Part shown: positions 15,055-36,707 of the stretch, piece after piece
How the letters are laid out: each line of letters starts with the position of its first letter
Numbering within the stretch: position 1 is the first letter of the stretch
Source: Pseudomonadota bacterium
GTDB taxonomy: Bacteria > Pseudomonadota > Gammaproteobacteria > Burkholderiales > Rhodocyclaceae
Length of the DNA: 64,000 bases
Direction of reading: 5' to 3'
Assembly (NCBI GenBank): GCA_018262095.1
Contig: JAGTRW010000025.1
Location: 1 to 64,000 of the forward strand
The notes under the pieces: model-generated
Database searches by the model: none
What the model was told of the DNA's origin: nothing
The model's input: the letters and a program-made list of their open reading frames with translations, nothing else
Program-made: the position numbers and the translations under genes

Positions 15055-15076
15055 GATTACCTGAAATCAAGTATCC
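15055..15076 (-). promoter_or_regulatory. Weak copy of the stress-island palindrome upstream of the kinase gene
   Basis: On the minus strand this reads GGATAC-N10-GTAATC, one mismatch per half from GAATAC-N10-GTATTC and with the same 10-base gap. It is about 80 bases upstream of the kinase start. The expected -10 element at 18-19 bases is poor, so this is a tentative autoregulation site. Confidence 0.35.
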
Positions 15077-15175
15077 AACGCCGTAGCGATCAATTCAATC
15101 ATCATAATGACATAAGCAAATCGAGTGAGCGAGCAATATAATCGCCTCAAGGCGTCTTTGAAAGCCGGAGTAGCT

Positions 15176-15850
15176 TCAGCCTTCCGCCTCGCCGATCAGC
15201 GGCACGAACGCCACCGGCAGGATACGAGTCTCTTCGATGCGGCCACGCAGATCCTTGCTGACCAGCAGCAATTGCTGGCCGAAAATCCGCTCGCCCACCG
15301 GGATCACCAGCGCGCCGCCCGGCTTGAGCTGTTCGATCAACGCCGGCGGGATCCCGGTCGGTGCTGCGGTGACCACGATGGCGTCGTACGGCGCATGCTC
15401 CGGCCAGCCCAGGCGACCGTTGCCCGAGCGCACCGCAACGTTCTCATAGCCCAGGCGCTGCAATCGTTCGCGCGCCGCCACCGCCAATTCGTCGACGATT
15501 TCCAGCGAGTACACCTGGCGCACCAATTCGGCCAGGATCGCCGCCTGATACCCCGACCCGGTGCCGACTTCGAGCACTACAGCATCGTCGCGCGGCCGGA
15601 TCAAATCGGTCATCAGGGCGACGATGTAGGGCTGAGAAATGGTCTGCCCGTAGCCGATCGGCAGCGGATGGTTGTCGTAGGCACGATCCTGCAACTGATC
15701 GCCGACGAAGGCGTGACGAGGCACCCGACGCATGGCGTCGAGCACGCGCGGATCGAGCGCCGAGCAGCCGGTGAACTCGCGCGTTTCACGCACCTCGTAG
15801 CAGATGTCGTCGAGCAGCATGTCCACGCGACGATCGCGATCGCTTTTCAT
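15176..15850 (-). CDS. pcm: Protein-L-isoaspartate O-methyltransferase
   Basis: A 224-residue SAM-dependent repair enzyme that methylates isoaspartyl residues in damaged proteins. Family marks: VPRHAFVG, then LPIGYGQTISQPYIVALM around the substrate site, the SAM motif LEVGTGSGYQAAILA, and PYDAIVVTAA. The length is normal. It stands alone, with about 200 bases to the kinase gene on one side and about 280 bases to the plus-strand hsp20 operon on the other. Protein repair fits the nearby quality-control genes. Confidence 0.93.
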   Translation of the reverse strand: MKSDRDRRVDMLLDDICYEVRETREFTGCSALDPRVLDAMRRVPRHAFVGDQLQDRAYDNHPLPIGYGQTISQPYIVALMTDLIRPRDDAVVLEVGTGSGYQAAILAELVRQVYSLEIVDELAVAARERLQRLGYENVAVRSGNGRLGWPEHAPYDAIVVTAAPTGIPPALIEQLKPGGALVIPVGERIFGQQLLLVSKDLRGRIEETRILPVAFVPLIGEAEG

Positions 15851-16018
15851 CCCTACCTATCCTCCCAGTCAGTAGACTCATCGCTGCCTGCCCGCCTTCC
15901 GCCGCAGCCAGCGAACCCGGGCTAGGCGATGCCGCCATGCTCCATCCATAGCCGATCTGAGCATGAATACCAGCACTTCTAGCAGGGCGGCGTCAAATCA
16001 CCTCAATGCCGTTAGCGC

Positions 16019-16065
16019 GAATACCCGATTGCTGGTATTCCCGACCGCAGTCGCCTGACTAGACT
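16019..16065 (+). promoter_or_regulatory. Stress-island promoter, copy A (palindrome plus -10)
   Basis: 16019-16040 is a perfect inverted repeat GAATAC-N10-GTATTC. Eighteen bases later comes CTAGACT (16059-16065), a -10-like element. No TTGACA-like -35 is seen. This would start transcription near 16072 and drive the 16136 gene and hsp20. See the matching copies at 17882, 28397, 28818, 35988 and 36059. Confidence 0.7.
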
Positions 16066-16135
16066 GAGGTCGTGCAAGGCTCTTCGACGTAGCTCTCGCA
16101 AATATTGAGCACAAGCCATTTCGCCGGAGTTGATG

Positions 16136-16573
16136 ATGTCCAGATCGCCGTTGCTGATTTCGCTGCTGGCCGTAATAAGCTGGTTGTCTGCTGCCGGCCT
16201 GTCTCTGGCGGCCGACCAGCGGGCCAATGCAGTCGCCATCCCGCATGAGAGCAGCGGCATCGGTGACGACGATCCGCTGGCGGCGATCGCCGGCGGCTAC
16301 AATCTGCAACTGGTTTTCGCAGCGCAGGGCAGCGGCGAGTATCTGGCCGACATCAAAGTGCTGATCGCCGATGCCAAGGGCAATACGCTGCTCGACGAAA
16401 AATCGCCCGGCCCCATTTTTTTCGTCAGACTGCCGGCCGGGACGTATCGGATCAGCGCCGATTTTGACGGCATGCCGTTGCGAAAATCGGTGACGGTCAG
16501 CGATCGCCGGCTGCAAAACCTGTACTTCCACTGGCCGCTGCCGGCCAGCGAAACTGAAAAGAGGAGGCCCTGA
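16136..16573 (+). CDS. Exported hypothetical protein, carboxypeptidase-regulatory-like fold
   Basis: A 145-residue protein with an N-terminal signal peptide (MSRSPLLISLLAVISWLSAA, likely cut after LSLAAD). The mature part, with SGEYLADIKVLIADAKGN and a final LPAGTYRISADFDG, resembles the small beta-sandwich of carboxypeptidase regulatory-like domains. Its function is unknown; it would be periplasmic or outer-membrane associated. GGAG precedes tandem ATGs at 16133/16136. It lies 2 bases ahead of hsp20, so the two are co-transcribed from the palindrome promoter at 16019-16065. Confidence 0.7.
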   Translation: MSRSPLLISLLAVISWLSAAGLSLAADQRANAVAIPHESSGIGDDDPLAAIAGGYNLQLVFAAQGSGEYLADIKVLIADAKGNTLLDEKSPGPIFFVRLPAGTYRISADFDGMPLRKSVTVSDRRLQNLYFHWPLPASETEKRRP

Positions 16574-16575
16574 CC

Positions 16576-17079
16576 ATGCTCGATTCCTTGAAAGAAGCGG
16601 GAAAGAACATCGGCCACGAGATCGGCCGCGCCTGGGACGTGGTGTCGGACGGCTGGCGCGAACTGTTTAGCCGCAGCAGCAACGCACTGACGCACTTTTC
16701 GCACACCCGCGACGTCAGCCCGCCGCCCGGCGCGATCTTCGCGCCCTACCCGCGCTGGAGCCTGCTGGCCAGCGAGGTCGAGGAAACGGAAAAGGAAATC
16801 GTCGTTCGCATCGAGCTTCCCGGCATGGACAAGAAGGACTGCCAGGTCACGATCGAGGGTAACCGACTGATTCTGACCGGCCGGAAACATTTTGAACGAG
16901 TCAGCGACGACAGCGAATTCCACGTCATGGAGCGCGCCTACGGGGCGTTCCAGCGCAGCATCGCGTTGCCGAAAAACGTTCGCGATGAACTCGCCGAGGC
17001 GAGCTACCGCAACGGCGTGCTGACGATCCGCCTGCCCAAACAGGAAACAGCGCAGTCAAGGTCGATTCCGGTCGCCTGA
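16576..17079 (+). CDS. Hsp20/alpha-crystallin family small heat-shock protein
   Basis: A 167-residue sHsp. The first 60 or so residues are a variable, amphipathic N-terminal arm. The alpha-crystallin domain spans about 65-160, with VVRIELPGMDKKDCQVTIEG and the conserved closing motif YRNGVLTIRLPK, then an IPV tail motif that links oligomers. sHsps hold unfolding proteins in a refoldable state. It is directly downstream of the exported small protein. It is one of four Hsp20-type genes in the window, and its long N-terminal arm is unlike the others. Confidence 0.93.
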   Translation: MLDSLKEAGKNIGHEIGRAWDVVSDGWRELFSRSSNALTHFSHTRDVSPPPGAIFAPYPRWSLLASEVEETEKEIVVRIELPGMDKKDCQVTIEGNRLILTGRKHFERVSDDSEFHVMERAYGAFQRSIALPKNVRDELAEASYRNGVLTIRLPKQETAQSRSIPVA

Positions 17080-17135
17080 GCCGAGATATCGACGATATCG
17101 CAGGCCAAACTCGCCGGCCAAATACCGATCGCTTT

Positions 17136-17702
17136 TCAATTGCCGCCCAGAGTCCACGCACCCAGTGGCTCATAGACCGAGCCACCAGGACCGGAGCGCG
17201 AGCGCAAGAGAACGAAGTCGCGATACCGCCAGCGGATCGGCACGTTTTTCAGCGCGTCCAGATCGCCAGCTGGCGGCCGGACCGTGAGCCGGCGAAGCAG
17301 CGTCACATGCGCGACAAAAGGCCGCGCTTCCAGGGTAAAGCCCCTGGCGAGCAGACTGCGGCGCAAACCCTCGGCCAGCGCGCCAAGCGGCGGCGAGCAA
17401 TGCTCGCTGGCCGCCCACAGCATCTTGCCGGCGGGGTGATGATGCAGACGATTGAGAACCACCGAGCCGCCAGCCGTCGCCTGCGCGACCTCGCCGGCTG
17501 CTGCCCGCAGACCGGGCAGACGATCCAGCCCGACCTCGCCGACAAAGACCAGCGTCAGGTGCAGCGTTTCCTTCGGCATCGGCCGGCCGCCCAGACGCGC
17601 AGCGAAGTCGTTGGCGACGGCGAACAAGCGGCGGCGGCAGCGCTCGCCAGGCGACAACGCAAAAAACACCCGGGCCCCATCAGGTTTGCCGACCACATTC
17701 AT
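17136..17702 (-). CDS. thpR: RNA 2',3'-cyclic phosphodiesterase (2'-5' RNA ligase family)
   Basis: A 188-residue 2H phosphoesterase. Both catalytic H-x-T-x motifs are visible: LHLTLVFVG near residue 48 and AHVTLLRR near residue 131. These enzymes hydrolyse RNA 2',3'-cyclic phosphates. A half-site GTATTC followed 19 bases later by ATAGACT lies directly upstream (17741 to 17710), only about 8 bases before the ATG. If that is the promoter, the transcript would be leaderless or the true start lies a little further in. Confidence 0.88.
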   Translation of the reverse strand: MNVVGKPDGARVFFALSPGERCRRRLFAVANDFAARLGGRPMPKETLHLTLVFVGEVGLDRLPGLRAAAGEVAQATAGGSVVLNRLHHHPAGKMLWAASEHCSPPLGALAEGLRRSLLARGFTLEARPFVAHVTLLRRLTVRPPAGDLDALKNVPIRWRYRDFVLLRSRSGPGGSVYEPLGAWTLGGN

Positions 17703-17709
17703 GAACGCT

Positions 17710-17741
17710 AGTCTATAAGCCCAGCCAAAATCATCGAATAC
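17710..17741 (-). promoter_or_regulatory. Partial stress-type promoter (half-site plus -10) before thpR
   Basis: Minus-strand GTATTC (17741-17736), 19 bases, then ATAGACT (17716-17710). Spacing and -10 match the stress-island promoters, but the distal half of the palindrome is missing. It is a weak call. Confidence 0.3.
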
Positions 17742-17881
17742 ACGGACGCACTGAAATGACCTACATCACGACCGGTAGTCGGAACGCCGTACTTCCGCCG
17801 ATCGCGGCGCCGACCACGGCTTTTGGCAGACTGCGGCGAGCGCTGACTCGAGATCGGAAAACCCCGGAAAATGCCTAATCG

Positions 17882-17928
17882 AAATACCCGCAAACGCGTA
17901 TTTTGAGCGAACCCGAAGCGTCTAAACT
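17882..17928 (+). promoter_or_regulatory. Stress-island promoter, copy B
   Basis: AAATAC (17882-17887), 10 bases, GTATTT (17898-17903), 18 bases, CTAAACT (17922-17928). The architecture is the same as at 16019. It would start transcription about 55 bases ahead of the mini-ORF and the DnaJ-like gene. Confidence 0.7.
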
Positions 17929-17992
17929 TGAACCCGTTAGCGCGGCGCCCGTCATCGCTTGCTGGGTCGCTGAGCAGTGCAGGAGGTGAGCG

Positions 17993-18019
17993 ATGAGTCG
18001 GCCCAGGACACCACCGTGA
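17993..18019 (+). CDS. Eight-codon mini-ORF overlapping the DnaJ-like start
   Basis: ATG at 17993 has the strongest ribosome site in the neighbourhood (AGGAGGT, good spacing), yet the frame stops after eight codons (MSRPRTPP). Its TGA overlaps the GTG at 18016 that opens the DnaJ-like frame (GTGA). It may couple translation of the two frames, or mark a frameshift that moved the original start out of frame. Confidence 0.4.
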   Translation: MSRPRTPP

Positions 18020-18858
18020 AACGAACGACCGTCGCGGCGCCGAACCCGGGCCTAAAGCGCGGAGCGGATATCGAAGCGAGCCTGCACGTCGCGCTCGAAC
18101 GCGTCGCCCGCGGCGGCGAAGAGAATCTGCACCTTTGCCGTCCAGCGGCCTGCCCCTCGTGCCGCGGCAGCGGCGGCCGGGATGGCGCGCCTCGGCGCCG
18201 TTGCGAGGCCTGCCAGGGCACCGGACACATCACGCACAGCCTGCGCGGCGACGGGCAGGCTGTGCTGATCCAGCGCATCACCCCGTGTCCTGCCTGCTAC
18301 GGCCGCGGCAGCCTCATCGACCACCCTTGCCAGGCGTGCCGTGGCACCGGGACGATCGCGCGCGAAGCAACCTTGACCGTCACCATCCCGCGCGGCATCG
18401 CCGACGACACGGTGCTGCGCATTACCGGTCAGGGCGCGCCCAGCCCCGACCCGGCCGGCGGTGCCGGTGACCTGCTGGTTCTCGTACAGACGCAGCGCGA
18501 TCCGCGCTTCGAACGCGACGGCGCCAACCTGCTGTACCGTGAAACCATTGCCTTGACCGACGCCGTACTCGGCACGACGCGCGCGGTGCCGACGCTCGAC
18601 GAAGCAGCCACCAGCGTGCTGATCCCGCCCGGAACGCAAGCCGGCGCCGTGCTGCGCCTGCCGGGCAAGGGTTTACCCGGGCTCGACGGCGGGCGGCGCG
18701 GCGAACTGCAGGTGCACATCCGGGTGCACGTGCCGCAGACCTTGTCGCACGAGGAGCGCGCGCTCTACGAACGGCTGCGCGTCCTGGCCAGCCGGCCGGC
18801 GATTGACGGCGACGACAGCGCAGCGCACAGCGAAGAGCGTCGCTTGCCGGGCGGCTGA
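18016..18858 (+). CDS. DnaJ-like co-chaperone without a J domain
   Basis: About 280 residues. There is no J domain or HPD motif. From the N-terminus it runs straight into the DnaJ substrate-binding region (LKRGADIEASLHVALERVAR), with four zinc-binding repeats CPSCRGSG, CEACQGTG, CPACYGRG and CQACRGTG, then the second beta domain ending around RRGELQVHIRVHVP. Such a protein could bind unfolded clients but not stimulate DnaK by itself. GTG 18016 is chosen because AGGA lies 7 bases upstream and it couples to the mini-ORF; GTG 17977 is an alternative. Palindrome promoter B lies upstream. Confidence 0.82.
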   Translation: MKRTTVAAPNPGLKRGADIEASLHVALERVARGGEENLHLCRPAACPSCRGSGGRDGAPRRRCEACQGTGHITHSLRGDGQAVLIQRITPCPACYGRGSLIDHPCQACRGTGTIAREATLTVTIPRGIADDTVLRITGQGAPSPDPAGGAGDLLVLVQTQRDPRFERDGANLLYRETIALTDAVLGTTRAVPTLDEAATSVLIPPGTQAGAVLRLPGKGLPGLDGGRRGELQVHIRVHVPQTLSHEERALYERLRVLASRPAIDGDDSAAHSEERRLPGG

Positions 18859-18889
18859 GCATGGCGCTGTCTTTTTTGGTTTGAGGGCC

Positions 18890-19984
18890 ATGGCGATTCT
18901 CGAAATCCGCAACGTCACCCGCCGCTTCGCCAGCCTCAAGGCCGTCGACGACGTTTCGCTGTCGATCGAAGCCGGCGAGTTCTTCACCCTGCTCGGTCCC
19001 TCGGGCTGCGGCAAGACGACGCTGTTGCGCCTGATCGCCGGTTTCGACGAGCCCGATGATGGCGCGCTATTCCTCGACGGCGCGCCGCTGGCCGGCATCC
19101 CGCCCGAGAAGCGGCCGGTGCATACCGTTTTCCAGAGCTACGCGTTGTTCCCGCACTTGAGCGTCGCGCACAACATCGCCTTTCCGCTGCGCATGGCCGG
19201 CCAGAACGACGAGCAAATCCGCCAGCTGCTCAAGGAGACGCTCGAACTCGTTCATCTTGCCGACAAGGCGCAGCATTTCCCGCACGAACTCTCGGGCGGC
19301 CAGAAGCAGCGCGTCGCGCTGGCGCGCGGCCTGATCAACAAGCCGCGCCTGCTGCTGCTCGACGAGCCGCTCGGCGCGCTTGACGCCAAGTTGCGCGAAC
19401 AGATGGAGGGCGAATTGATCGCGCTGCAGCGCGAAGTCGGCATCACCTTCGTTTTCGTCACCCACTCGCAGCAGGAGGCGCTGGCTTTGTCGCACCGCAT
19501 CGCGGTGATGAATTGTGGGCGCATCGAGCAGGTCGATTGCCCAGAACAGATCTACGGCTTCCCCAAAAACCGTTTCGTCGCCGACTTCATCGGCACCATC
19601 AACCTGTTGCCCGTCGAGGTGCGCGAAGCGAGCCATGGCCGCCTGCGTCTGGCCGTTGACGGACTTGGCGAAATCATCGCCGCGCCGGCCGCCGGGCTCA
19701 AGACAGGCGAGCGCGGCAGTTTCGCGCTGCGTCCCGAGCAGGTTCGCGTCGCCGCAGCGGGCGGACACCACGAGATACCCGAACTGCACAACCACTTTCA
19801 TGGCCGGGTTCGCGACTTCCTCTATCTGGGCGATGTCACCGTCTACAAACTTGAACTCGACAACGGCGTACTGATCGAAGCGCTGCTCGCCAACTCGGCG
19901 CCGGGACGCGCCAAGTTCTTTGAGATCGGCGACACGGTCAGCGTCGGCTGGCGATGCGATGCCGGAGTCTACCTTCGTGACTAA
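18890..19984 (+). CDS. potA: Polyamine-type ABC transporter ATP-binding protein
   Basis: A 364-residue ABC ATPase. Walker A GPSGCGKTT, signature LSGGQKQRVALARG, Walker B LLLLDEPLGALD and the switch His in FVTHSQQEA are all present, followed by a TOBE-type C-terminal domain. It is the first of four overlapping genes, potABCD-like, for uptake of spermidine or putrescine (inferred from the PotD-like receptor). The potB-like start lies inside its 3' end. It starts 31 bases after the DnaJ-like gene, so read-through from the stress promoter is possible. Confidence 0.9.
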   Translation: MAILEIRNVTRRFASLKAVDDVSLSIEAGEFFTLLGPSGCGKTTLLRLIAGFDEPDDGALFLDGAPLAGIPPEKRPVHTVFQSYALFPHLSVAHNIAFPLRMAGQNDEQIRQLLKETLELVHLADKAQHFPHELSGGQKQRVALARGLINKPRLLLLDEPLGALDAKLREQMEGELIALQREVGITFVFVTHSQQEALALSHRIAVMNCGRIEQVDCPEQIYGFPKNRFVADFIGTINLLPVEVREASHGRLRLAVDGLGEIIAAPAAGLKTGERGSFALRPEQVRVAAAGGHHEIPELHNHFHGRVRDFLYLGDVTVYKLELDNGVLIEALLANSAPGRAKFFEIGDTVSVGWRCDAGVYLRD

Positions 19985-20810
19985 GCGCGGCTTGCGCGGC
20001 GACCTCACGCGCTGGCTGGTGAGCCTGCCGCCGACGGTCTTCCTGCTCGTTTTCTTCCTGGCGCCGACGCTGATCATGGTCACCGCGTCGTTCCAGAACC
20101 CGGGCGAGTTCGGCGGCCTCGCGCCACTGTTCGCAGAAGGCCAGGCCAGGCTGACGCTGGAAACCTACCGCTTCTTCTTCGGCGACTGGATCTACGCCGA
20201 GATTTTTCTGCGCTCGTTCCTGGTCGCCGGCGCGACGACGCTGATCTGCCTGATCTTTGCCTACCCGCTGGCGCTGACCATCGCGGCTAGCCCGAAACGC
20301 CACCGCGACCTGCTGGTGCTGCTGGTCATCCTGCCTTTCGCCAGCAATTTCCTGATCCGCGTTTACGCCTGGATCATCCTGCTCGGCCCGGCTGGCCTGC
20401 TGTACACGCCGATCGCGGTGATCGCCGGGATGGTCTATGTACACCTGCCGTTCATGATCCTGCCGCTCTACACCAACCTCGAAAAGCACGACCCGACACT
20501 GCTCGAAGCCGCGCAGGACCTGGGCGCCGGCGCCTGGACCCGCTTCTGGCGCGTCACCTGGCCGCTCTCGCTGCCCGGCATCTGGTCCGGCACCGCGCTG
20601 GTCTTCATCCCGGTGCTCGGCATGTTCGCCATTCCCGAACTGCTCGGCGGCACCGGCGACATCCTGATCGGCAACCTGATCAAGGAGCAGTTTCTCGAGA
20701 GCCGCGACTGGCCGCTCGGCTCGACGCTGTCGCTGCTGCTGACGCTCGCCGTGCTGGCGCTGGCGGCGCTCTCGGCCTGGGCCGCAAGCCCCCGGCGCCA
20801 GCGCTCATGA
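19959..20810 (+). CDS. potB: Polyamine-type ABC transporter permease (PotB-like)
   Basis: A 283-residue inner-membrane permease with about six helices and the ABC permease EAA loop (EAAQDLGAGAWTRFWRVTWP) that contacts the ATPase. It begins 26 bases inside the potA-like gene and its stop overlaps the next start (ATGA). The family handles putrescine, spermidine and related cations. The exact substrate is not visible in the sequence. Confidence 0.9.
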   Translation: MPESTFVTKRGLRGDLTRWLVSLPPTVFLLVFFLAPTLIMVTASFQNPGEFGGLAPLFAEGQARLTLETYRFFFGDWIYAEIFLRSFLVAGATTLICLIFAYPLALTIAASPKRHRDLLVLLVILPFASNFLIRVYAWIILLGPAGLLYTPIAVIAGMVYVHLPFMILPLYTNLEKHDPTLLEAAQDLGAGAWTRFWRVTWPLSLPGIWSGTALVFIPVLGMFAIPELLGGTGDILIGNLIKEQFLESRDWPLGSTLSLLLTLAVLALAALSAWAASPRRQRS

Positions 20811-21595
20811 AACACCGCACGCCCTGGCTGTGGGGCGCCGCGCTGGCGGTCTATGCCTTCCTCTACCTGCCGCTGGCGGTGGTCGTCATCTTTTCGTTCA
20901 ACGATTCGCAGCTCAACGCGCAGTGGGTCGGGTTCACCACGCGCTGGTACGCCAAGCTCTTCGCCGACGGTGAGATGCTGCACGCCGCCGCCAACTCGCT
21001 GGCCATCGCGCTCACTGCCGCGAGCGTCGCCACCGTGCTCGGCACGATGGCCGGAATCGCCATGCAGCGCTGGCCAACCGGCGTGCTGCGCGCGCTGCCC
21101 GGGCTGGTGCTGACGCCGGTGGCAATGCCCGAGATCCTGCTCGGCGTCTCGCTGCTGCTCTTTTTCCGCGAAGTCCTCGACCTCACGCTCGGGCTCGTCT
21201 CGATTCTCGTTGCGCACATCACCTTCTCGATCGGCTTCGTCGCGATCATCGTTCGCGCCCGCCTGGCCGGAATGGACGAGAGCATCTTCGAAGCCGCCCG
21301 CGACCTCGGTGCAAGTCCGTGGCAGACCTTCCGCTGCGTCACGCTGCCGCTGATCGCACCCGGCATCCTGGCCGGCTTCCTGATGAGCTTCACGCTGTCG
21401 ATCGACGACTTCGTGATCACCTTCTTCGTCGCCGGCGTCGGCGTCACCACGCTGCCGCTGCAGATCTATTCGATGATCAAGGTCGCCGTCAGTCCGGAGG
21501 TCAACGCCGTGTCGACGCTGCTGATGGCGCTGACGCTGACGCTGATTTTCATCGCCTCGCGCCTGGCGCCCGACGCGCTCAAGGTCAAGCCATGA
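20807..21595 (+). CDS. potC: Polyamine-type ABC transporter permease (PotC-like)
   Basis: A 262-residue second permease, with an EAA loop (EAARDLGASPWQTFRCVTLP) and the typical FSFNDS motif after the first helix. It overlaps both neighbours by 4 bases (ATGA at each end). With the PotB-like protein it forms the membrane channel of the transporter. Confidence 0.9.
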   Translation: MKHRTPWLWGAALAVYAFLYLPLAVVVIFSFNDSQLNAQWVGFTTRWYAKLFADGEMLHAAANSLAIALTAASVATVLGTMAGIAMQRWPTGVLRALPGLVLTPVAMPEILLGVSLLLFFREVLDLTLGLVSILVAHITFSIGFVAIIVRARLAGMDESIFEAARDLGASPWQTFRCVTLPLIAPGILAGFLMSFTLSIDDFVITFFVAGVGVTTLPLQIYSMIKVAVSPEVNAVSTLLMALTLTLIFIASRLAPDALKVKP

Positions 21596-22647: not shown

Positions 22648-22657
22648 GGACAAAATC

Positions 22658-26966: not shown

Positions 26967-27050
26967 GATGTTCTCAACATAGACGCCGACGCCTGTGAAG
27001 GCCAGAACGCACGCACCGAAAGCCGCTGAGCAGGGGCGCCAAGCCATCGA

Positions 27051-27098
27051 AAATGCTCGGCTTCACGGTATTGACAGCGCCTCCGGGAGCGCTGCATT
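27051..27098 (+). promoter_or_regulatory. Degenerate stress-type promoter before cbpA
   Basis: AAATGC (27051-27056), 11 bases, GTATTG (27068-27073), 18 bases, CTGCATT (27092-27098). The layout is the same as in the stress-island promoters but with one extra spacer base and a poor -10. It is 42 bases before the cbpA start. A tentative call. Confidence 0.35.
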
Positions 27099-27139
27099 GT
27101 GCACCGGTCGATGCTGCCGCGATGAGATGAGGCCGAGAC

Positions 27140-28099: not shown

Positions 28100-28406
28100 C
28101 AATGACTTTCTGATTGGCAGCGTGATGGAAGACGCCTGGCTGACGCTCGAACAGATCGCCGCCGCGTGCACGGCGGACCCCGAATGGCTGGCGCAGCGCC
28201 TCGGCGAAGGCTGCTTCCCCGACGCCGAAAGCGTCGCCGGCGTCTGGCGCTTCTCGACGTCGTCCATCCTGCGCGCACGCCGCATGCGGCAGTTCGAGCG
28301 CGATTTCGACGCCGCTCCCGAGCTCGCCGCGCTGATCGCCGACCTGCTCGAAGAGACTGACAGCCTTCGCGCCAGACTGCGCCGCGCCGGCGTCGATAAT
28401 ACATAA
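28092..28406 (+). CDS. cbpM: CbpA modulator CbpM (MerR-like fold)
   Basis: A 104-residue protein matching the CbpM/chaperone-modulator family: an N-terminal MerR-like helical part ([20 protein letters not shown]) and a C-terminal coiled helix ([14 protein letters not shown]). CbpM binds the J domain of CbpA and blocks its action on DnaK. Its start lies within the end of cbpA. Its last codons run into the palindrome of promoter C (28397-28418). Confidence 0.9.
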
Positions 28407-28444
28407 ATCCGAGTATTTTCGGCCGACAAGCGCATCGCTAGACT
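28397..28444 (+). promoter_or_regulatory. Stress-island promoter, copy C
   Basis: TAATAC (28397-28402), 10 bases, GTATTT (28413-28418), 19 bases, CTAGACT (28438-28444). It straddles the cbpM stop and would drive the small gene at 28549. Confidence 0.65.
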
Positions 28445-28548
28445 TCGCCCAAGGGTTGAGCACCGGCCTGCTTATTCGATTCACAGTGACTTGGCGCCCC
28501 CCTTTGCAACGATTTCCCTACTGTCAAAAAACCAAAGTGAATTATCAA

Positions 28549-28752
28549 ATGAAACTCGAAAAGTATGTCGGGCGCATCGTCCGTTTGAATCAGCGAGCCT
28601 TCCAGGAAATCGCCAGGCGCGCGAAGCGCCGCGGAGCGGCGTTGGAAAACTGTTTTCTGGTGGCGGGGGTAAGTCGCGAGATGCGCAAACTGATCTGCTA
28701 CGGCGCAAACCTTCGAATCGTCGTCGGCGCCGCTGATGTGGTCCTGGTTTGA
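28549..28752 (+). CDS. Small basic hypothetical protein
   Basis: 67 residues beginning MKLEKYVGRIVRLNQRAF and rich in Arg/Lys in its first half, with a hydrophobic end (LRIVVGAADVVLV). The family is not recognised. The ribosome site is weak (AAGTGAA far upstream). It lies about 100 bases after promoter C, which supports expression. It could be a small RNA- or protein-binding factor, but nothing specific is visible. Confidence 0.55.
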   Translation: MKLEKYVGRIVRLNQRAFQEIARRAKRRGAALENCFLVAGVSREMRKLICYGANLRIVVGAADVVLV

Positions 28753-28817
28753 GTTCGGAACTCGTCGCAGACTTCACTGAGGGAGCTGGCCAACGCGTAC
28801 CCGGCGTCAGGTAAGCA

Positions 28818-28865
28818 CAATACGTCCATGCACGTATAGGTTTTCCCCTGTCACGGCTCTATATT
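28818..28865 (+). promoter_or_regulatory. Stress-island promoter, copy D
   Basis: CAATAC (28818-28823), 10 bases, GTATAG (28834-28839), 19 bases, CTATATT (28859-28865), which contains a near-consensus -10 TATATT. It would start transcription about 60 bases before the 28933 gene and continue into hsp20 and beyond. Confidence 0.65.
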
Positions 28866-28932
28866 TGAGGCGACGGCCCAAGCAGCGGCCGGCGTAGCGA
28901 CTTGATGCGGATGTGCGGGGAGCGAAGCAAGA

Positions 28933-29223
28933 ATGAGCTGGCCGCAACTGTTATCCCGCTTGGCAATAGGCTTGCTCATCGTCGGTGGCCAGGCCCACGG
29001 AATGGCCGACAGCACTGACGAAGCCGTCCCGAAAGAGCCGCCGGATAGCGTTTCCCTGCCGTCGATCGAAAAAAGCGAAGCCGGTGACGAAAGCCAATCC
29101 GTCGAACGCAGCGAAGAGGCTTCCAGTTCGACGCAAGCGACGAAAGGAGGCGATCACCAGGAAATCGATCAGCGCGATGCGTTGTTGATCTTGCTTTTGG
29201 AAATTCTGCGGTCTTCAAATTGA
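28933..29223 (+). CDS. Small exported acidic hypothetical protein
   Basis: 96 residues. It has an N-terminal hydrophobic signal (LLSRLAIGLLIVGGQAHGMA), then a Ser/Glu-rich, apparently disordered middle, then a short hydrophobic C-terminal helix (RDALLILLLEILRS). GGGAG lies 10 bases or so ahead of the ATG. It is 25 bases upstream of hsp20 and downstream of promoter D, like the exported small protein paired with hsp20 at 16136. Function unknown. Confidence 0.6.
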   Translation: MSWPQLLSRLAIGLLIVGGQAHGMADSTDEAVPKEPPDSVSLPSIEKSEAGDESQSVERSEEASSSTQATKGGDHQEIDQRDALLILLLEILRSSN

Positions 29224-29248
29224 GGCCCGCAACATTAGGAGACGGATT

Positions 29249-29770
29249 ATGGCAAACGATACCAAGACTGAAATCGCCGTGACGACGGCACCCAAGACCG
29301 AAATTGCCGAACGGCGGCCCGCACAGGTCTTCGGCCCGCTGGACGAAGTTGAACGTTTGTTCGATCGCTTGATGCCGCGCACCTGGATGCGCCCGATGAT
29401 GTGGAATTGGCCGATGTGGAGCGGTCTGGAATCAACGCTCGGCAATGTCCGCGTCCCGCAATTGGACGTCATCGACCGCGACAAGGATATTCTGGTTCGA
29501 GTCGAAGTCCCCGGCGTCGAGAAGAAGGATATCGACGTTTCGATCAGCGATAACACGCTGCTCATCAAGGGCAGCGTGAAGCACGAGTCGAAAGAGCAAC
29601 GCAAAGACTATTTCCGTTGCGAGATCGAGCAGGGCAATTTTTCCAGGAGCCTCGCCCTGCCCGGCGCCGTCGACAAAGCAAAGATCTCTGCCAACCTCAA
29701 AGATGGCATTCTTGAGATCATCCTGCCGAAGGAAGAAGACGCGCAACGTCGCTCCGTCGAGGTCAAGTAG
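29249..29770 (+). CDS. Hsp20/alpha-crystallin family small heat-shock protein
   Basis: A 173-residue sHsp with a Met/Trp-rich N-terminal arm (PRTWMRPMMWNWPMW), the alpha-crystallin domain from about 70 to 165 (VRVEVPGVEKKDIDVSISD) and the closing motif LKDGILEIILPK. It has a clear TTAGGAG ribosome site. The likely operon continues with the radical SAM gene 91 bases downstream. The domain sequence is closer to the Hsp20 at 36185 than to the one at 16576. Confidence 0.93.
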   Translation: MANDTKTEIAVTTAPKTEIAERRPAQVFGPLDEVERLFDRLMPRTWMRPMMWNWPMWSGLESTLGNVRVPQLDVIDRDKDILVRVEVPGVEKKDIDVSISDNTLLIKGSVKHESKEQRKDYFRCEIEQGNFSRSLALPGAVDKAKISANLKDGILEIILPKEEDAQRRSVEVK

Positions 29771-29861
29771 TCTTGAAGCTCGCCGCGCCAGGGCGCCCGG
29801 CGGCCGACGATGATCGGCGTCCGCGCCTGGCCCGGTCGGCACGAGAAAGAGCGGTGTCACC

Positions 29862-30959
29862 ATGGATGAAGTAATCGGCGTTTCCCAACGTCATCCGGCG
29901 AAGTACTGGCACGTCCTCGGTGATGGCCGCATTCAATGTGATGTCTGTCCGCGTGACTGCAAGCTCCACGAAGGGCAACGCGGCGCCTGCTTTGTGCGTG
30001 GACGCGTCGACAATCGGATGGTACTGACGACCTACGGCCGCTCGTCGGGATTCTGCATCGACCCGATCGAGAAAAAACCGCTCAATCACTTTTTTCCCGG
30101 CTCCAGCGTTTTTTCTTTTGGCACGGCGGGCTGCAATCTGGCGTGCAAATTCTGCCAGAACTGGGATATTTCCAAGTCGCGCGAGATGGACCGACTGATG
30201 GATTCAGCCTCGCCGAAAGCCATTGCCGCGGCAGCTCGCGCCCATGACAGCCTGAGCGTCGCCTTCACCTACAACGATCCGGTCGTTTTTTTCGAGTATG
30301 CGCTCGACACCGCCGACGCCTGCCACCAACGCGGCCTGATGACCGTCGCGGTGACTGCGGGTTATGTCCACGAGGCGCCGCGTCGCGAGTTCTTCGCCAA
30401 GATGGACGCCGCCAATATCGATCTCAAGAGCTTCAGCGACGACTTTTACGTCAAGCTTTGCGGCGGTCATCTGCAGCCGGTTCTCGACACGCTGAGCTAT
30501 GTTCATCATGAGACCAAATGCTGGCTTGAGGTCACCACGCTGCTGATCCCCGGACACAACGACTCGGATCAGGAACTCGGCGCGCTCACGAGATGGCTGG
30601 CGCAGGAACTGGGGCCCGAGGTGCCGCTGCATTTGAGCGCCTTTCACCCCGACTGGAAGATGACCGAGCTTCCGCCGACGCCGTCGGCGACCTTGGGCCG
30701 CGCTCGACGCATCGCCCTCGACGCCGGTCTGCATTACGTCTATACGGGAAACATTCACGACCCCGAGGGCGGCACCACCTATTGCCCCTCCTGCCGTCAT
30801 GCGACGATCGTTCGCGACTGGTACGACATTCACCACTACGACCTGACCCCGCAGGGCTGTTGCCCGCAGTGCGGCAGCTCGATTGCCGGGCACTTCGGGA
30901 CGCTAGCCAAACCGTTCGGCCGCCATTGCCTTCCCGTCCACCTGGGGCTTGACGCATGA
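29862..30959 (+). CDS. AmrS-type radical SAM protein
   Basis: A 365-residue radical SAM enzyme. Residues about 26-43 have a Cys motif (CDVCPRDC with a later GAC). The cluster motif CNLACKFC gives Cys91, Cys95 and Cys98. A C-terminal rubredoxin-like pair (YCPSC and CCPQCG) closes the protein. This is the AmrS (AmmeMemoRadiSam system) pattern, formerly listed as pyruvate formate-lyase activase. The usual partners MEMO1 and AMMECR1 are not in the window. It sits instead in an hsp20-lon run; its target is unknown. Confidence 0.85.
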   Translation: MDEVIGVSQRHPAKYWHVLGDGRIQCDVCPRDCKLHEGQRGACFVRGRVDNRMVLTTYGRSSGFCIDPIEKKPLNHFFPGSSVFSFGTAGCNLACKFCQNWDISKSREMDRLMDSASPKAIAAAARAHDSLSVAFTYNDPVVFFEYALDTADACHQRGLMTVAVTAGYVHEAPRREFFAKMDAANIDLKSFSDDFYVKLCGGHLQPVLDTLSYVHHETKCWLEVTTLLIPGHNDSDQELGALTRWLAQELGPEVPLHLSAFHPDWKMTELPPTPSATLGRARRIALDAGLHYVYTGNIHDPEGGTTYCPSCRHATIVRDWYDIHHYDLTPQGCCPQCGSSIAGHFGTLAKPFGRHCLPVHLGLDA

Positions 30960-31162
30960 ACCTCTCGTTGCCGGAAAGCGCCTGCGCGCGGCGGATACTC
31001 GCCGGGACAGTCATCGTTCTGGGCGCCGTGCTGATTTTTATCGCGCCGGAAACTTGGCCGGGGATGGCGCTGCTGGCGCTTGGCGTACTGGTTGAATTGA
31101 TCGGCATGTGGCTGGCCCATCATCGGCGTTCTCATCTGAAACAGTTTCACGACTCGCCCTAG
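30956..31162 (+). CDS. Small two-helix membrane protein
   Basis: 68 residues with two hydrophobic helices (ILAGTVIVLGAVLIFIAP and ALLALGVLVELIGMWLA) and a basic tail (HHRRSHLK). The ATG overlaps the radical SAM stop (ATGA), so it is translationally coupled. It is not a recognised family. It may anchor or regulate a neighbour, but that is speculation. Confidence 0.65.
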   Translation: MNLSLPESACARRILAGTVIVLGAVLIFIAPETWPGMALLALGVLVELIGMWLAHHRRSHLKQFHDSP

Positions 31163-31177
31163 AAAGGGATATTTGCC

Positions 31178-31579
31178 ATGCGGCGCCGAAACACGGGATT
31201 CTGGATATGGGCCGAGGCGCTCGACTTGCTGCGCAACGCCGAACGCCTGCAGTACCGGCTCGTCGCGCGCGACGCCTTGCAGCGCGTGCCCTGCTGGGAA
31301 CCTGCCGTCGACATGTACCAGCACGATGACGAGCTCACGCTCTTTGTCGCCTTGCCTGGCGTCAACCCGCGGCAATTCGAGGTAATCGTCGAGGGCGCCG
31401 GATTGATCGTACACGGCAGTCGTCCGATCCCGTCAGCGCTGCAGCGCGCCGCGATCCATCGCCTTGAAATCCCTTACGGCCGGTTCGAGCGCCGGATACC
31501 CCTTCCCCCGGGCAACTTCCGGGTGCACCAGCAGTATTTCGAGGACGGCTGTCTGGTCCTCATTCTGCACCACCTTTGA
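31178..31579 (+). CDS. Divergent Hsp20-like protein
   Basis: 133 residues. The alpha-crystallin pattern is present but reduced: PAVDMYQHDDELTLFVALPG, then FEVIVEGAGLIVHG and a closing YFEDGCLVLILHHL, where the usual NGVL becomes DGCLVL. It ends without the IxI/V tail seen in typical sHsps, which would limit oligomer assembly. It lies 13 bases upstream of lon. It could be a substrate-handling partner of Lon. Confidence 0.75.
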   Translation: MRRRNTGFWIWAEALDLLRNAERLQYRLVARDALQRVPCWEPAVDMYQHDDELTLFVALPGVNPRQFEVIVEGAGLIVHGSRPIPSALQRAAIHRLEIPYGRFERRIPLPPGNFRVHQQYFEDGCLVLILHHL

Positions 31580-31592
31580 GAGTGACGCGATC

Positions 31593-33989
31593 ATGCCCAG
31601 CGAGCCCACGGCAGAAAGCACCGAAAGCAGTGCGCACAAGCGCGACAGCGGCGTTCTGGTGATTCCCGACGGCGCCATGATCATCGTGGCGATGCGCAAT
31701 GTCGTGCTGTTCCCCGGGATGATCCTGCCGCTCACCATCGGCCGCCCGCAGTCCGTCGCCGCCGCACAGCAGGCAGTGAAAATGGAGCGCCCGATCGGCA
31801 TCCTGCTGCAGCGCGACCCCGAGGTCCAAACCCCCGGCCCGGACGATCTTTGCCGCGTCGGGACAGTCGCCAACATCCTGCGCTACGTGACCTTGCCCGA
31901 CGATTCGCATGTCATTGTCTGCCAGGGGCAGCAGCGCTTTCGCGTCAGCGAGTACCTCGACGCTTACCCCTTCCCCGTCGCGCACATCGTTCGCCTCGAC
32001 GAACCCGAGGCCAGCGACACCGAGATCGAAGCGCGCGCCATCCAGCTCAGGGAGCGTGCGCTCGAAGTCCTGCAGTTGCTGCCGCAAGCCTCTGACGAGA
32101 TGTCCAACGTCGTGCGCAGCATTTCTTCGCCGGGGGCATTGGCCGACCTGATCGCCGGCCTCGTCGAGCTCAAGGCCGAAGAAAGGCAGGCCGTGCTTGA
32201 AGCCGTCGACCTCGTGCCGCGACTCGATCTGGTGCTCGGCTATCTCATCAAACGCCTCGAAGTGCTCAAGATTTCGCGCAAGATCGACGAACGCACCAAA
32301 GCCAGTATCGACGAACGCCAGCGCGAATTTCTCTTGCGCGAGCAGCTCAAATCGATCCAGAACGAGCTCGGCGAGGGTGACAGCGGCAACTCCGCCGAGA
32401 TCGCCGAGTTGCGCAAGACCATCGCCGAGGCGCAAATGCCCGAAGAGGTCGAGCGTCAGGCGACCAAGGAACTCAAGCGACTCGAGCACATGTCCGAGGC
32501 TTCGGCCGAGTACTCGATGGTGCGCTCCTACATCGACTGGCTGATCGAGCTGCCGTGGAAGGCGCCGGATCCCGATCGCATCGACATTGCCGAAGCGCGC
32601 AACATCCTCGATCACGACCATTTCGGACTCGACCGGGTCAAGAAGCGCATCGTCGAATTTCTCGCGGTGCGCAAACTCAACCCCGAGGGGCACGGCCCTA
32701 TCCTCTGCTTTGTCGGCCCGCCCGGCGTCGGCAAGACGTCGCTCGGTCAGTCGATTGCCCGCGCGCTCGGGCGCAAGTTCGTCCGCGCCTCGCTCGGCGG
32801 CGTGCACGACGAGGCCGAGATCCGCGGCCACCGACGCACCTATATCGGCGCGCTGCCCGGCAACATCGTTCAGGCGATCGCCAAGGCCGGCTCGCGCGGC
32901 TGCGTGCTGATGCTCGACGAGATCGACAAGCTGGGCAGCGGCATCCACGGCGACCCCTCGTCGGCGCTGCTCGAGGTGCTCGACCCGGAGCAGAACAATA
33001 CCTTCCGCGACAACTACCTGGCGCTGCCCTACGACCTGTCACGGGTGCTGTTCATCACCACCGCCAACGTGCTCGACAATATTCCGGGACCACTGCGCGA
33101 CCGCATGGAAGTCATCACCTTGCCCGGCTACACGCAGGAGGAAAAACGCGAAATTGCGCAGCGTTATCTCATCGCGCGCCAGATCGAGCAGAACGGTCTG
33201 CAACAAGGTCAGTTCGAAATTTCAGACGCCGCGCTGGTGGCGATTATCCGCGACTACACGCGCGAGGCCGGCGTGCGCACGCTCGAACGCCAGATCGGCG
33301 CGGTCTGCCGCCGCGCGGCAGTGAGTATCGCCGAAGGCACCGTCGCTTCGCTCAAGATCGACGAAGGCGACCTCGCCGCCATTCTCGGCCCGACCCAATA
33401 CGAAAACGAAGTGGCGCTGCGCATCGGCATGCCAGGCGTCGCCACCGGACTCGCGTGGACGCCGGTCGGCGGCGACATCCTGTTCATCGAGGCCAGTCGC
33501 ATGGCCGGTGACGGCCATCTGATCCTGACCGGCCAACTCGGCGACGTGATGAAGGAATCCGCGCAAGCGGCGCTCACGCTGCTCAAGACGCGAGCGACCG
33601 ACCTCGGGATCGACGCTGCCGTATTTGAAAAAACCACCGTCCATGTCCATGTCCCGGCCGGCGCCATCCCCAAGGACGGCCCGAGCGCCGGCGTCGCGAT
33701 GTATATCGCGCTCGCCTCGCTGTTCTGCGAACGCACGGTACGCAGCGACACGGCGATGACCGGCGAGATCAGCCTGCGCGGGCTGGTGCTGCCGGTCGGC
33801 GGGATCAAGGAGAAGGTGCTCGCCGCGATGCGTGCCGGTATCCGCCGCGTGTTGTTGCCGGCCAGGAACCGCCGGGATCTCGAAGAAGTCCCGCCGGAGG
33901 CGAGAGGAAAGCTCGAATTCGTATTTCTCGACAACGTCGACGACGCCGCCAGCCAGGCGATGGAGCAGCCGAACAACGCCGGGCGCTGA
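31593..33989 (+). CDS. lon: ATP-dependent protease Lon
   Basis: A 798-residue LonA. It has an N-terminal substrate domain (about 1-220), an AAA+ domain with Walker A GPPGVGKTS near residue 375 and Walker B CVLMLDEIDKLG, and a serine protease domain with PKDGPSAG (Ser698) and KEKV (Lys741) as the catalytic dyad. Lon degrades unfolded and regulatory proteins. ATG 31593 follows the hsp20-like stop by 13 bases. A lon copy embedded in an hsp20 operon is unlike the usual clpX-lon-hupB locus, so this may be a second, stress-dedicated copy; only the whole genome can tell. Confidence 0.95.
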   Translation: MPSEPTAESTESSAHKRDSGVLVIPDGAMIIVAMRNVVLFPGMILPLTIGRPQSVAAAQQAVKMERPIGILLQRDPEVQTPGPDDLCRVGTVANILRYVTLPDDSHVIVCQGQQRFRVSEYLDAYPFPVAHIVRLDEPEASDTEIEARAIQLRERALEVLQLLPQASDEMSNVVRSISSPGALADLIAGLVELKAEERQAVLEAVDLVPRLDLVLGYLIKRLEVLKISRKIDERTKASIDERQREFLLREQLKSIQNELGEGDSGNSAEIAELRKTIAEAQMPEEVERQATKELKRLEHMSEASAEYSMVRSYIDWLIELPWKAPDPDRIDIAEARNILDHDHFGLDRVKKRIVEFLAVRKLNPEGHGPILCFVGPPGVGKTSLGQSIARALGRKFVRASLGGVHDEAEIRGHRRTYIGALPGNIVQAIAKAGSRGCVLMLDEIDKLGSGIHGDPSSALLEVLDPEQNNTFRDNYLALPYDLSRVLFITTANVLDNIPGPLRDRMEVITLPGYTQEEKREIAQRYLIARQIEQNGLQQGQFEISDAALVAIIRDYTREAGVRTLERQIGAVCRRAAVSIAEGTVASLKIDEGDLAAILGPTQYENEVALRIGMPGVATGLAWTPVGGDILFIEASRMAGDGHLILTGQLGDVMKESAQAALTLLKTRATDLGIDAAVFEKTTVHVHVPAGAIPKDGPSAGVAMYIALASLFCERTVRSDTAMTGEISLRGLVLPVGGIKEKVLAAMRAGIRRVLLPARNRRDLEEVPPEARGKLEFVFLDNVDDAASQAMEQPNNAGR

Positions 33990-33992
33990 ATC

Positions 33993-34919
33993 ATGAAATT
34001 CGAGCCGAGCAACGCGCTACACCAGCCTGCCAGGCGCTGCTTGCCTGAGCCGGTTCGACGCTTTGCGGGCGACGACGACACGCGGTTCGAAAACGTCGTT
34101 TTTGCCGGCGGCGGCAATCGCTGCTTCTGGCAGGCCGGCTTCTGGTCGGTGGCAGCTCAAGCCTTGGCTCTGAAGCCAACCCGGGTGACTGCCGTCAGCG
34201 CCGGTTCGGCGATCGCCTGCACGCTTTTTTCGGATAGTTTCGACAGCGGTTTTCGTCACTACAAGAAAGCGCTTGCCGCCAACGGCAGCAACGTCTATTT
34301 GCGCAACCTGTTGCGCGACCAGCCGGTATTCCCGCACGGCACCATGTACCGCGACGCGATCCTCGCCTGCATCGACGAGGCAGCGCTCATGCGTTTGCGT
34401 TGCGCTTCGCCGCAGATCAGCGTGCTGATTTCGTGTCCGCCGCGCTGGGCATCACCAGGAATGGCACTGATGCTCGGAATGATCGCCACCGGGATCGACG
34501 ATTTGGGCAGTGAATGCGTCCACGCATCGTGCGGCTGTCGGATCGGCTTCTCCCCGTTGTTCGTCTCGGTACGCGAGTGCGCCACTCCCGCATCGCTTGC
34601 CGACCTGATCATTGCCTCGTCCTGTGTCCCGCCGCTGACGCCGCAAGCGCGGCGCAACGGCATCGCGCTGTTCGACGGCGGCTTCGTCAGCAACGTGCCG
34701 ACGCAAGGCGTGGGCGGCGCCGACGGCCAGACCCTGGTGCTGCTCACCCGCCCGTTCGCGCAGCTGCCGTCGATTCCCGGGCGAACCTACGTCCAGCCGT
34801 CACACCCCGTTCCGGTCGCGGCGTGGGACTACACCGATCCGGCGGCGCTGCAAGCGACCTTCGACCTCGGCCGGCGTGACGGCGAACGCTTCTGCACCAC
34901 GCTCGGCGTCACGGCGTGA
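33993..34919 (+). CDS. Patatin-like phospholipase family protein
   Basis: 308 residues. The oxyanion loop GGGNRCFWQAG and the nucleophile motif AVSAGSA (GxSxG type with Val-Ser-Ala) occur near residues 40-75, and the catalytic Asp in FDGGFVSNVP lies further on. These give the Ser-Asp dyad of patatins, which cut phospholipids or other acyl esters. It starts 3 bases after lon, so it is in the same operon. The first glycine of the GxSxG motif is replaced, so activity should be tested. Confidence 0.82.
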   Translation: MKFEPSNALHQPARRCLPEPVRRFAGDDDTRFENVVFAGGGNRCFWQAGFWSVAAQALALKPTRVTAVSAGSAIACTLFSDSFDSGFRHYKKALAANGSNVYLRNLLRDQPVFPHGTMYRDAILACIDEAALMRLRCASPQISVLISCPPRWASPGMALMLGMIATGIDDLGSECVHASCGCRIGFSPLFVSVRECATPASLADLIIASSCVPPLTPQARRNGIALFDGGFVSNVPTQGVGGADGQTLVLLTRPFAQLPSIPGRTYVQPSHPVPVAAWDYTDPAALQATFDLGRRDGERFCTTLGVTA

Positions 34920-35913
34920 GCACCGCTGCACCCTGAAACTCGCCGCGCCGCAGCTGCGCCAACGCCTCGTTGGCGTCGGCCAGCGCAAAGCGCTGAACCT
35001 TGGTGCGCAACACCACGCGCGGCGCCAGATCGAGGAATTCCAGTCCGTCGCGGCGAGTCAGGTTGGCCACCGAGCGGATGCTGCGTTCGCCCCATAGCAA
35101 GGCATAGGGAAAGGCCGGGATGTCGCTCATGTGGATCCCGGCGCAGACCACGACACCGCCCTTCTCGAGGTGGCTCAGAGCGACCGGAACGAGCGCTCCG
35201 GCGGGAGCGAAGATGAGCGCCGCGTCGAATCGCGCCGGCGGACTCTGCGCGGAATCGCCGGCCCAGGCGGCGCCGAGGTGACGCGCGAAATCCTGGCTGG
35301 CGTCATCGCCGGGGCGCGTGAAAGCATAGAACTCGCGGCCCTGGAACCTGGCGATCTGCGCGACGATATGTGCGGCGGCGCCAAAACCGTAGATACCGAG
35401 CCGGCGCGCCTGGTGCGCCTCGCCGCACAGGCGCAGGGCGCGATAGCCGATCAGGCCGGCGCACAGCAAGGGCGCCAGTAGCGCGGCATCGCCAAAATCG
35501 GAAAGCGGGAAACAGTAGCGCGCGTCGGCGACACAGAACTCGGCATAGCCGCCGTCGATCTGGTAACCCGTAAAGCGCGCCAGATCGCAGAGGTTCTCAC
35601 GGCCGCTGAGACAGAAGCGGCATTTGCCGCAGGTCCAGCCGAGCCAGGGAACGCCGATGCGCTGGCCGAGCCGGAAAGACGAAACCTCGGCGCCGAGCTC
35701 GGCGACGCGACCGACGACTTCGTGGCCGGGGATGATCGGCAACACCGGGTCGGGCAATTCGCCGTCGACCAGATGCAGGTCGGTGCGGCAGACGCCGCAG
35801 GCCTCAACCTCGATCAAGACCTTGCCGCGGCTCGGCTGCGGTAGCGGCAGCTCGGCCAGGCGCAAGGGCAAACCCGGCTGCTCGAGAATCATGGCTCGCA
35901 TGCTGCGCTTCAT
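34909..35913 (-). CDS. Zinc-dependent alcohol dehydrogenase (AdhP/AdhA-like)
   Basis: A 334-residue medium-chain dehydrogenase with catalytic-zinc motif ACGVCRTDLH, GHEVVG, a structural-zinc set (CGKCRFCLSGRENLC) and the Rossmann motif IYGFGAAAH, where the usual final Gly is Ala. It belongs to the zinc-binding alcohol dehydrogenase group that reduces short aldehydes. It is convergent with the patatin gene (11-base overlap) and divergent from hsp20 at 36185. The palindrome promoter E lies upstream. Confidence 0.85.
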   Translation of the reverse strand: MKRSMRAMILEQPGLPLRLAELPLPQPSRGKVLIEVEACGVCRTDLHLVDGELPDPVLPIIPGHEVVGRVAELGAEVSSFRLGQRIGVPWLGWTCGKCRFCLSGRENLCDLARFTGYQIDGGYAEFCVADARYCFPLSDFGDAALLAPLLCAGLIGYRALRLCGEAHQARRLGIYGFGAAAHIVAQIARFQGREFYAFTRPGDDASQDFARHLGAAWAGDSAQSPPARFDAALIFAPAGALVPVALSHLEKGGVVVCAGIHMSDIPAFPYALLWGERSIRSVANLTRRDGLEFLDLAPRVVLRTKVQRFALADANEALAQLRRGEFQGAAVLTP

Positions 35914-35960
35914 TATTCCTCCCTGCGGATGTCGCCGCTCTTGAACGAGGTCATGCGCTC

Positions 35961-36009
35961 AACATACGCCGCACGGTAGCGGCCGGGAAATACACCCGTC
36001 GCCGTATTT
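35961..36009 (-). promoter_or_regulatory. Stress-island promoter, copy E (for adh)
   Basis: AAATAC-N10-GTATTT at 35988-36009. Read on the minus strand, 19 bases later comes CGTATGT(T), containing a TATGTT -10. It is about 50 bases ahead of the adh start. It is paired back-to-back with copy F, which faces hsp20. Confidence 0.65.
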
Positions 36010-36058
36010 TTGCTCGCCAGGCGCCGGCGCGCCGCGGCCTAAGGTAATCAGGTAGCGA

Positions 36059-36106
36059 GAATAGAGGGGACCGAGTATTCCCGCTGGCCGGGGCTACGGC
36101 TAGTTT
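36059..36106 (+). promoter_or_regulatory. Stress-island promoter, copy F (for hsp20)
   Basis: GAATAG (36059-36064), 10 bases, GTATTC (36075-36080), 19 bases, CTAGTTT (36100-36106). One mismatch in the left half. It would start transcription roughly 70 bases before hsp20 at 36185. Confidence 0.65.
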
Positions 36107-36634: not shown

Positions 36635-36707
36635 ACGATAGGCGCCGGTCGGTCAGCAAAAGTGCTTGGCCGGCAGAGGCTTCTGTTCCCGCCCGGGAGG
36701 GCTCACC

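Follow-up and report, generated by a model that had tools for sequence, protein, structure and literature searches.

NarL of Escherichia coli acts through heptamers that, when inverted, stand in a 7-2-7 arrangement, and EvgA is a further regulator of the NarL family. The NarL heptamer itself is given as TACYYMT in the account cited here (PMC4886647). Clusters of stress genes like the one treated below are known from the Burkholderia lxa locus, for which six universal stress proteins are described (PMC9104464), and from the enterobacterial locus of heat resistance (LHR). As far as the cited passages on the latter go, EvgA had earlier been reported to act on an LHR promoter, and LHR expression was not found to be EvgA-dependent (PMC8067161). 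Here we analyse a chaperone and protease island within a stretch of 64,000 nucleotides (the window; positions 1 to 64,000 of contig JAGTRW010000025.1, assembly GCA_018262095.1, family Rhodocyclaceae, order Burkholderiales), in which six promoters carry the inverted repeat AAATAC-N10-GTATTT.

We propose, with a probability of roughly 80%, that a response regulator of the NarL/LuxR family binds this palindrome. The most likely candidate is the protein encoded at 11017–11661 on the minus strand, which the adjacent CheB-CheR-PAS-HisKA_3 kinase would phosphorylate; the probability was slightly reduced for an order-wide test that gave no support. The original prediction had described a shared promoter layout around a motif that was not recognised as a CIRCE, ROSE, FNR, CRP, sigma-32 or sigma-54 site. 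The layout stands, and the placement of the motif is amended: its TAC-N10-GTA geometry is that of a NarL/LuxR response-regulator operator.

Proposed operators and promoter layout

All six predicted copies of AAATAC-N10-GTATTT were confirmed in the window, at 16019, 17882, 28397, 28818, 35988 and 36059, with two, zero, one, three, zero and three mismatches, respectively. In terms of the core AATAC-N10-GTATT, four of the operators are exact and two carry one mismatch. The sites, with the −10 element and the genes that each faces, are as follows.

16020..16039, plus strand: operator, exact; −10 TAGACT at 16060–16065; faces an exported protein (16130–16573) and hsp20 (16576–17079)
17883..17902, plus strand: operator, exact; −10 TAAACT at 17923–17928; faces a DnaJ-like protein without J domain (17977–18858)
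28398..28417, plus strand: operator, exact, lying over the stop codon of a cbpM-like gene (28404–28406); −10 TAGACT at 28439–28444; faces a small basic open reading frame (28549–28752)
28798..28813, plus strand: second TAC-N10-GTA (TACCCGGCGTCAGGTA), 23 bp upstream of the 28819 operator; the sole tandem among the six
28819..28838, plus strand: operator, one mismatch; −10 TATATT at 28860–28865; faces an exported protein (28933–29223), hsp20, amrS, lon and patatin
35989..36008, minus strand: operator, exact; −10 TATGTT at 35966–35961; faces adh (34909–35913, minus strand)
36060..36079, plus strand: operator, one mismatch; −10 TAGTTT at 36101–36106; faces hsp20 (36185–36634)

With up to three mismatches, AAATAC-N10-GTATTT has 11 matches in the window, compared with a mean of 4.36 and a maximum of 10 in 100 shuffles. 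The exact core occurs four times in the whole 4.80 Mb assembly, all four between window positions 16020 and 36008, against a single genome-wide occurrence of the reversed-pattern control. When up to one mismatch is allowed, 45 places are found in the genome, six of them in the window, and the control gives 21; hence the single-mismatch copies outside the window are largely background.

Each of the six sites, standing before stress and chaperone genes as had been predicted, is followed by TAnnnT at a near-fixed distance, measured from GTATT as 20, 20, 21, 21, 22 and 21 nt in window order. If transcription is taken to start 7 nt after the −10, the palindrome centres lie at −42.5 to −44.5, and the −35 boxes agree with TTGACA at 2–3 of six positions at best. 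Both the position near −42 and the lack of a TTGACA-like −35 had been anticipated. At the predicted starts the promoters thus have the layout of class II activator-dependent sigma-70 promoters, with a centre near −42, a sigma-70-like −10 and no −35.

A weight matrix was trained on 19 sites from nine other genomes, two of them (G007 and G022) of the window's genus; these sites were selected partly for the presence of TAnnnT and by both half-sites. By total score, the six window sites rank first to sixth, the sixth at 22.3 and the next distinct site at 12.2, while 40 shuffles gave a mean top score of 11.4 and a largest of 26.1, a value reached by one shuffle. The operator part of the matrix alone again places the six first to sixth (14.8–23.9), the next match scoring 13.5. 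Two weaker copies that had been suggested were rejected as operators on the same scale: the one before cbpA (27051) has 11 bases between its half-sites and scores 3.3, and the half-site before thpR (17736) scores below zero.

Tandem sites are frequent in relatives. A second TAC-N10-GTA lies upstream of 12 of 19 relatives' sites, at 23 bp (nine), 22 bp (one) or 21 bp (two), and all remaining offsets examined gave only two matches. Likewise, in three Thauera loci (L100–L102), G854 and G847, close to the regulator gene, a good distal site is paired with a degenerate proximal site 23–24 bp away, with 21 nt to TAnnnT. The E-values of the matrix searches at relatives' loci are approximate, as a single simulated sequence of 200 kb was used for each locus.

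The position of GTATT, close to that of a −35 and at a nearly fixed distance from the −10, would also be expected if GTATT served an alternative sigma factor as its −35 and the inversion of the two halves were incidental. We consider this extremely unlikely, since TAnnnT is a −10 of the sigma-70 type, the AATAC half is nearly as conserved as the GTATT half (albeit in a set chosen by both halves) and a second TAC-N10-GTA recurs 21–23 bp upstream.

Candidate regulator and its distribution in the family

The genes proposed to control these promoters, together with a weak site beside them, lie at the following positions.

10482..10925, minus strand: universal stress protein gene (domain match), adjoining the regulator gene
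11017..11661, minus strand: response regulator with receiver and GerE/LuxR helix-turn-helix domains (Response_reg, 5.6e-26; GerE, 3.4e-19); proposed binder of the sites
11677..14976, minus strand: sensor kinase with domain matches to CheB, CheR, PAS, HisKA_3 and HATPase (HATPase_c), adjoining the regulator gene; proposed partner
15056..15075, minus strand: weak copy resembling the operator (score 8.9), ahead of the kinase gene and lacking a TAnnnT 20–22 nt away

The domain make-up of the two proteins fits a NarL/LuxR (FixJ-class) regulon, with a receiver plus GerE regulator, an adjacent HisKA_3 kinase and a TAC-N10-GTA operator. The nearest solved relatives of the regulator are VraR, NarL (1a04) and DevR (3c3w). 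Against the NarL equivalog model it scores 150.3 bits, with a cut-off of 250, which does not mark it as NarL itself; furthermore, of the 102 NCBIfam families matched, the best 25 include none whose curated cut-off it reaches. The weak copy that had been noted before the kinase gene (15055) is present, ranks as the ninth best 20-mer in the window by operator score and has weak counterparts before the kinase genes of G515, G767 and G426, but the −10 that would complete the layout is missing. Autoregulation of the kinase gene is possible.

In the proposed mechanism, dimers of the phosphorylated regulator would bind TAC-N10-GTA, extended to AATAC-N10-GTATT. A dimer centred near −43 would stand in for the −35 element and bring RNA polymerase with sigma-70 to the TAnnnT −10 (class II activation), and in relatives many promoters may bind a second dimer 21–23 bp, or about two helical turns, further upstream. 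In response to a presumed stress signal, the small heat-shock proteins, the J-like protein, Lon, the radical-SAM enzyme, the patatin and the alcohol dehydrogenase would be switched on jointly.

When 101 genomes of the family were scanned blind for the operator plus its −10 (the composite), 39 matches were obtained in 14 genomes, or 37 distinct matches as two palindromes were counted on both strands, against two for the reversed control. The genome scan that the original prediction had named as its own refuting check therefore came out in its favour, both here and in the placement of all four exact copies in this island. The regulator (E <= 1e-48) is present in 23 of the 101 genomes, and 36 of the 39 composites fall in these 23. 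Both were found in 11 genomes, the regulator only in 12, the composite only in three and neither in 75 (Fisher p = 2.1e-6). At genus level the corresponding counts are nine, eight, two and 49 (p = 2.1e-5), the composite being present in 9/17 genera with the regulator and in 2/51 others; as the genomes are related to each other, both tests overstate independence. The site plus a −10 at fixed distance discriminates better than the bare motif, exact copies of which were few and often near the reversed control in 59 relatives' genomes. The idea that the bare motif is in excess across relatives' genomes was accordingly rejected.

The spacing was also assessed in sites taken regardless of the −10, namely all 20 exact sites of seven genomes chosen for having the regulator. 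Ten of these lie within 20 kb of the regulator gene: 3/3 in Accumulibacter sp. 66-26, 1/1 and 2/3 in two Azonexus metagenome-assembled genomes, 2/4 in an uncultured beta-proteobacterium, 2/4 in G028, 0/4 in G010 and 0/1 in Niveibacterium. TAnnnT stands exactly 21 nt away at 11 of the 20 (P = 2.5e-13) compared with 2 of 30 control sites, and at 20–22 nt at 13 of the 20 compared with 3 of the 30. The control sites come from 29 loci; one of these belongs to G033, a genome with a related regulator, and five (L070–L074) were included without being assigned to a genome.

Weighing the regulator assignment

A number of observations weigh against the assignment of these sites to the 11017–11661 regulator. 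The recognition helix, (S/T)V(E/D)VHRRN(I/L)M, recurs among the listed regulators in many cases, whether exact sites lie nearby or not, so that the helix alone does not separate them. Several genomes of the family encode two or more such regulators, so that a given site may be bound by any of these paralogues; moreover, 12 of the 23 family genomes with the regulator are without an exact composite, and a tandem partner is found at only one of the six window sites, 28819. In a survey of 399 genomes of the order (regulator cut-off E <= 1e-52), the composite was present in 51 and the regulator in 17, with both in four, the regulator only in 13, the composite only in 47 and neither in 335 (p = 0.16). 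The 74 composites of this survey compare with about 52 for a reversed control that was counted by hand. Order-wide presence and absence does not support a link between site and regulator, and we judge most composite matches in the order to be background. In individual relatives, the 40 kb around the regulator gene of G010 (regulator 76% identical) contain no site with fewer than two mismatches, and the best matrix match there is at chance level; L098 (68% identical) has only weaker copies, and no sites were found on L099 and G864, both contigs of 4.2 kb.

Position speaks for the link in two genomes of the order. Apart from the window genome itself, the order survey found its two best regulator matches in G515 and G767 (77% identical), and each of these has two composites 4.5 to 8.5 kb from the regulator gene, a position that supports the link between site and regulator within the order. 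Their islands contain the kinase, two hsp20 genes, pcm, nicotinate phosphoribosyltransferase (NAPRT) and other relatives of window genes.

As a separate observation, a distant genome of the order (G542, L287 9193–9829) has one isolated, perfect operator, followed by TAGACT at 21 nt, immediately behind the gene of a LuxR-type regulator only 35% identical to that of the window.

Were the neighbouring regulator linked to the sites by co-inheritance only, they could be bound by another protein, such as a second NarL/LuxR-type regulator encoded elsewhere in the genome. Three further matches to the regulator exist in the same genome at E <= 1e-30, and the recognition helix is widely shared; these proteins, however, are only 33–38% identical, and the sites follow close relatives of the 11017–11661 regulator, often at a distance of 25 kb or less. 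We regard a second regulator as improbable.

A further point against a NarL-type operator is that the same core has been described for a repressor. The operator of MbdR, a TetR-family protein of Azoarcus sp. CIB, is given as ATACN10GTAT (PMC4424350), a palindrome found exactly in the four exact window copies, and 11 matches to TetR_N were found in the genome, one falling short of the family cut-off. A repressor of this kind would keep the genes off until a ligand, for instance an aromatic acyl-CoA, was bound. None of the 11 matches is on the contig of the window (C78), so that no TetR gene stands beside the sites, unlike mbdR in the mbd cluster. In the cited account of MbdR, two footprints cover the start and the −10 (+18 to −16; −4 to −34), and that at the PA promoter spans the −35 (PMC4424350), whereas the sites here keep 20–22 nt to the −10, often have a second copy 21–23 bp upstream in relatives and, as composites in the family, accompany the response regulator. 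Position and gene content disfavour an MbdR-like repressor here, although no search for an MbdR orthologue was made, and we hold this explanation to be quite unlikely.

Genes behind the proposed operators and relation to known systems

All three intact hsp20 genes of the window stand behind operators. The remaining intact hsp20 of the genome is on contig C12, and no copy with up to one mismatch was found on that contig. Between amrS and lon, at 31313–31588 on the plus strand, a sequence that matches Hsp20 weakly (29 bits) when two TGA stops are read through is likely a degenerate fourth hsp20. In relatives, hsp20 lies downstream of a site on the same strand in G515, G767, G428, G856 and G874; other genes behind sites encode PAS-GGDEF proteins, a PEBP-family protein, a transglycosylase, an HlyD-type protein, DUF2934 and a nitroreductase.

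The exported protein at 28933–29223 has no Pfam or NCBIfam match. Small exported proteins are found behind the operator in five genomes (that of the window, G515, G427, G428 and G426); those of the relatives have 97–105 residues, are 17–28% identical to the window protein and share with it a C-terminal R-x3-(L/F)-x2-LL stretch, and together they possibly form a new small family. The NAPRT at 36662–38638 (plus strand) has about 210 unassigned N-terminal residues. As its relatives in G515, G767 and G610 align across 625–635 residues, the N-terminal extension seems to be shared. At 28398–28417 the operator shares bases with the cbpM-like stop codon, and the regulatory site would here constrain the end of a coding sequence.

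The proposed control of the island by the NarL/LuxR-type regulator names a candidate regulator, operator and promoter rule for a set of chaperone and protease genes; within the family, a blind search with that rule returned sites that accompany the regulator. A CheB-CheR-PAS kinase would thereby be connected with a concrete output, and a simple reporter would allow its signal to be looked for; we know of no description of the signal for this type of kinase. A more far-reaching idea, which we consider doubtful, is that of a dedicated proteostasis regulon in this family of Betaproteobacteria, in which a cytosolic CheB/CheR-fused kinase would drive hsp20, the J-like protein and Lon via single or tandem operators, with the methylase and methylesterase providing a chemotaxis-like adaptation or memory.

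Searches of the open-licence literature returned no description of this system, and the described ones resemble it in part. The account of the lxa locus, in the portion that concerns us, gives no control motif, in contrast to the operator set out here. ClpK and YfdX-type genes are defining genes of the LHR, also known as the transmissible locus of protein quality control (TLQC), and no Clp (ClpK) or YfdX family was matched among the 30 window proteins scanned with Pfam. The DosR/DevR dormancy regulons are closer in two respects, as DevR is among the nearest solved relatives of the regulator and the DosR regulon places an hsp20 and universal stress protein gene set under a NarL-type regulator, as is proposed for the window; the DosR operator and heme kinases differ from the operator and kinase found here. 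The likeness to NarL/NarP lies in the operator and the protein: the spacing in TAC-N10-GTA is the outer one of an inverted pair of heptamers that start with TAC, and the 11017–11661 regulator is a NarL-type receiver plus GerE protein that aligns with NarL. In contrast to the NarL/NarP sites, those of the window have conserved AA/TT flanks and often a G at heptamer position 5, and the genes behind them belong to chaperones and proteases rather than to nitrate respiration.

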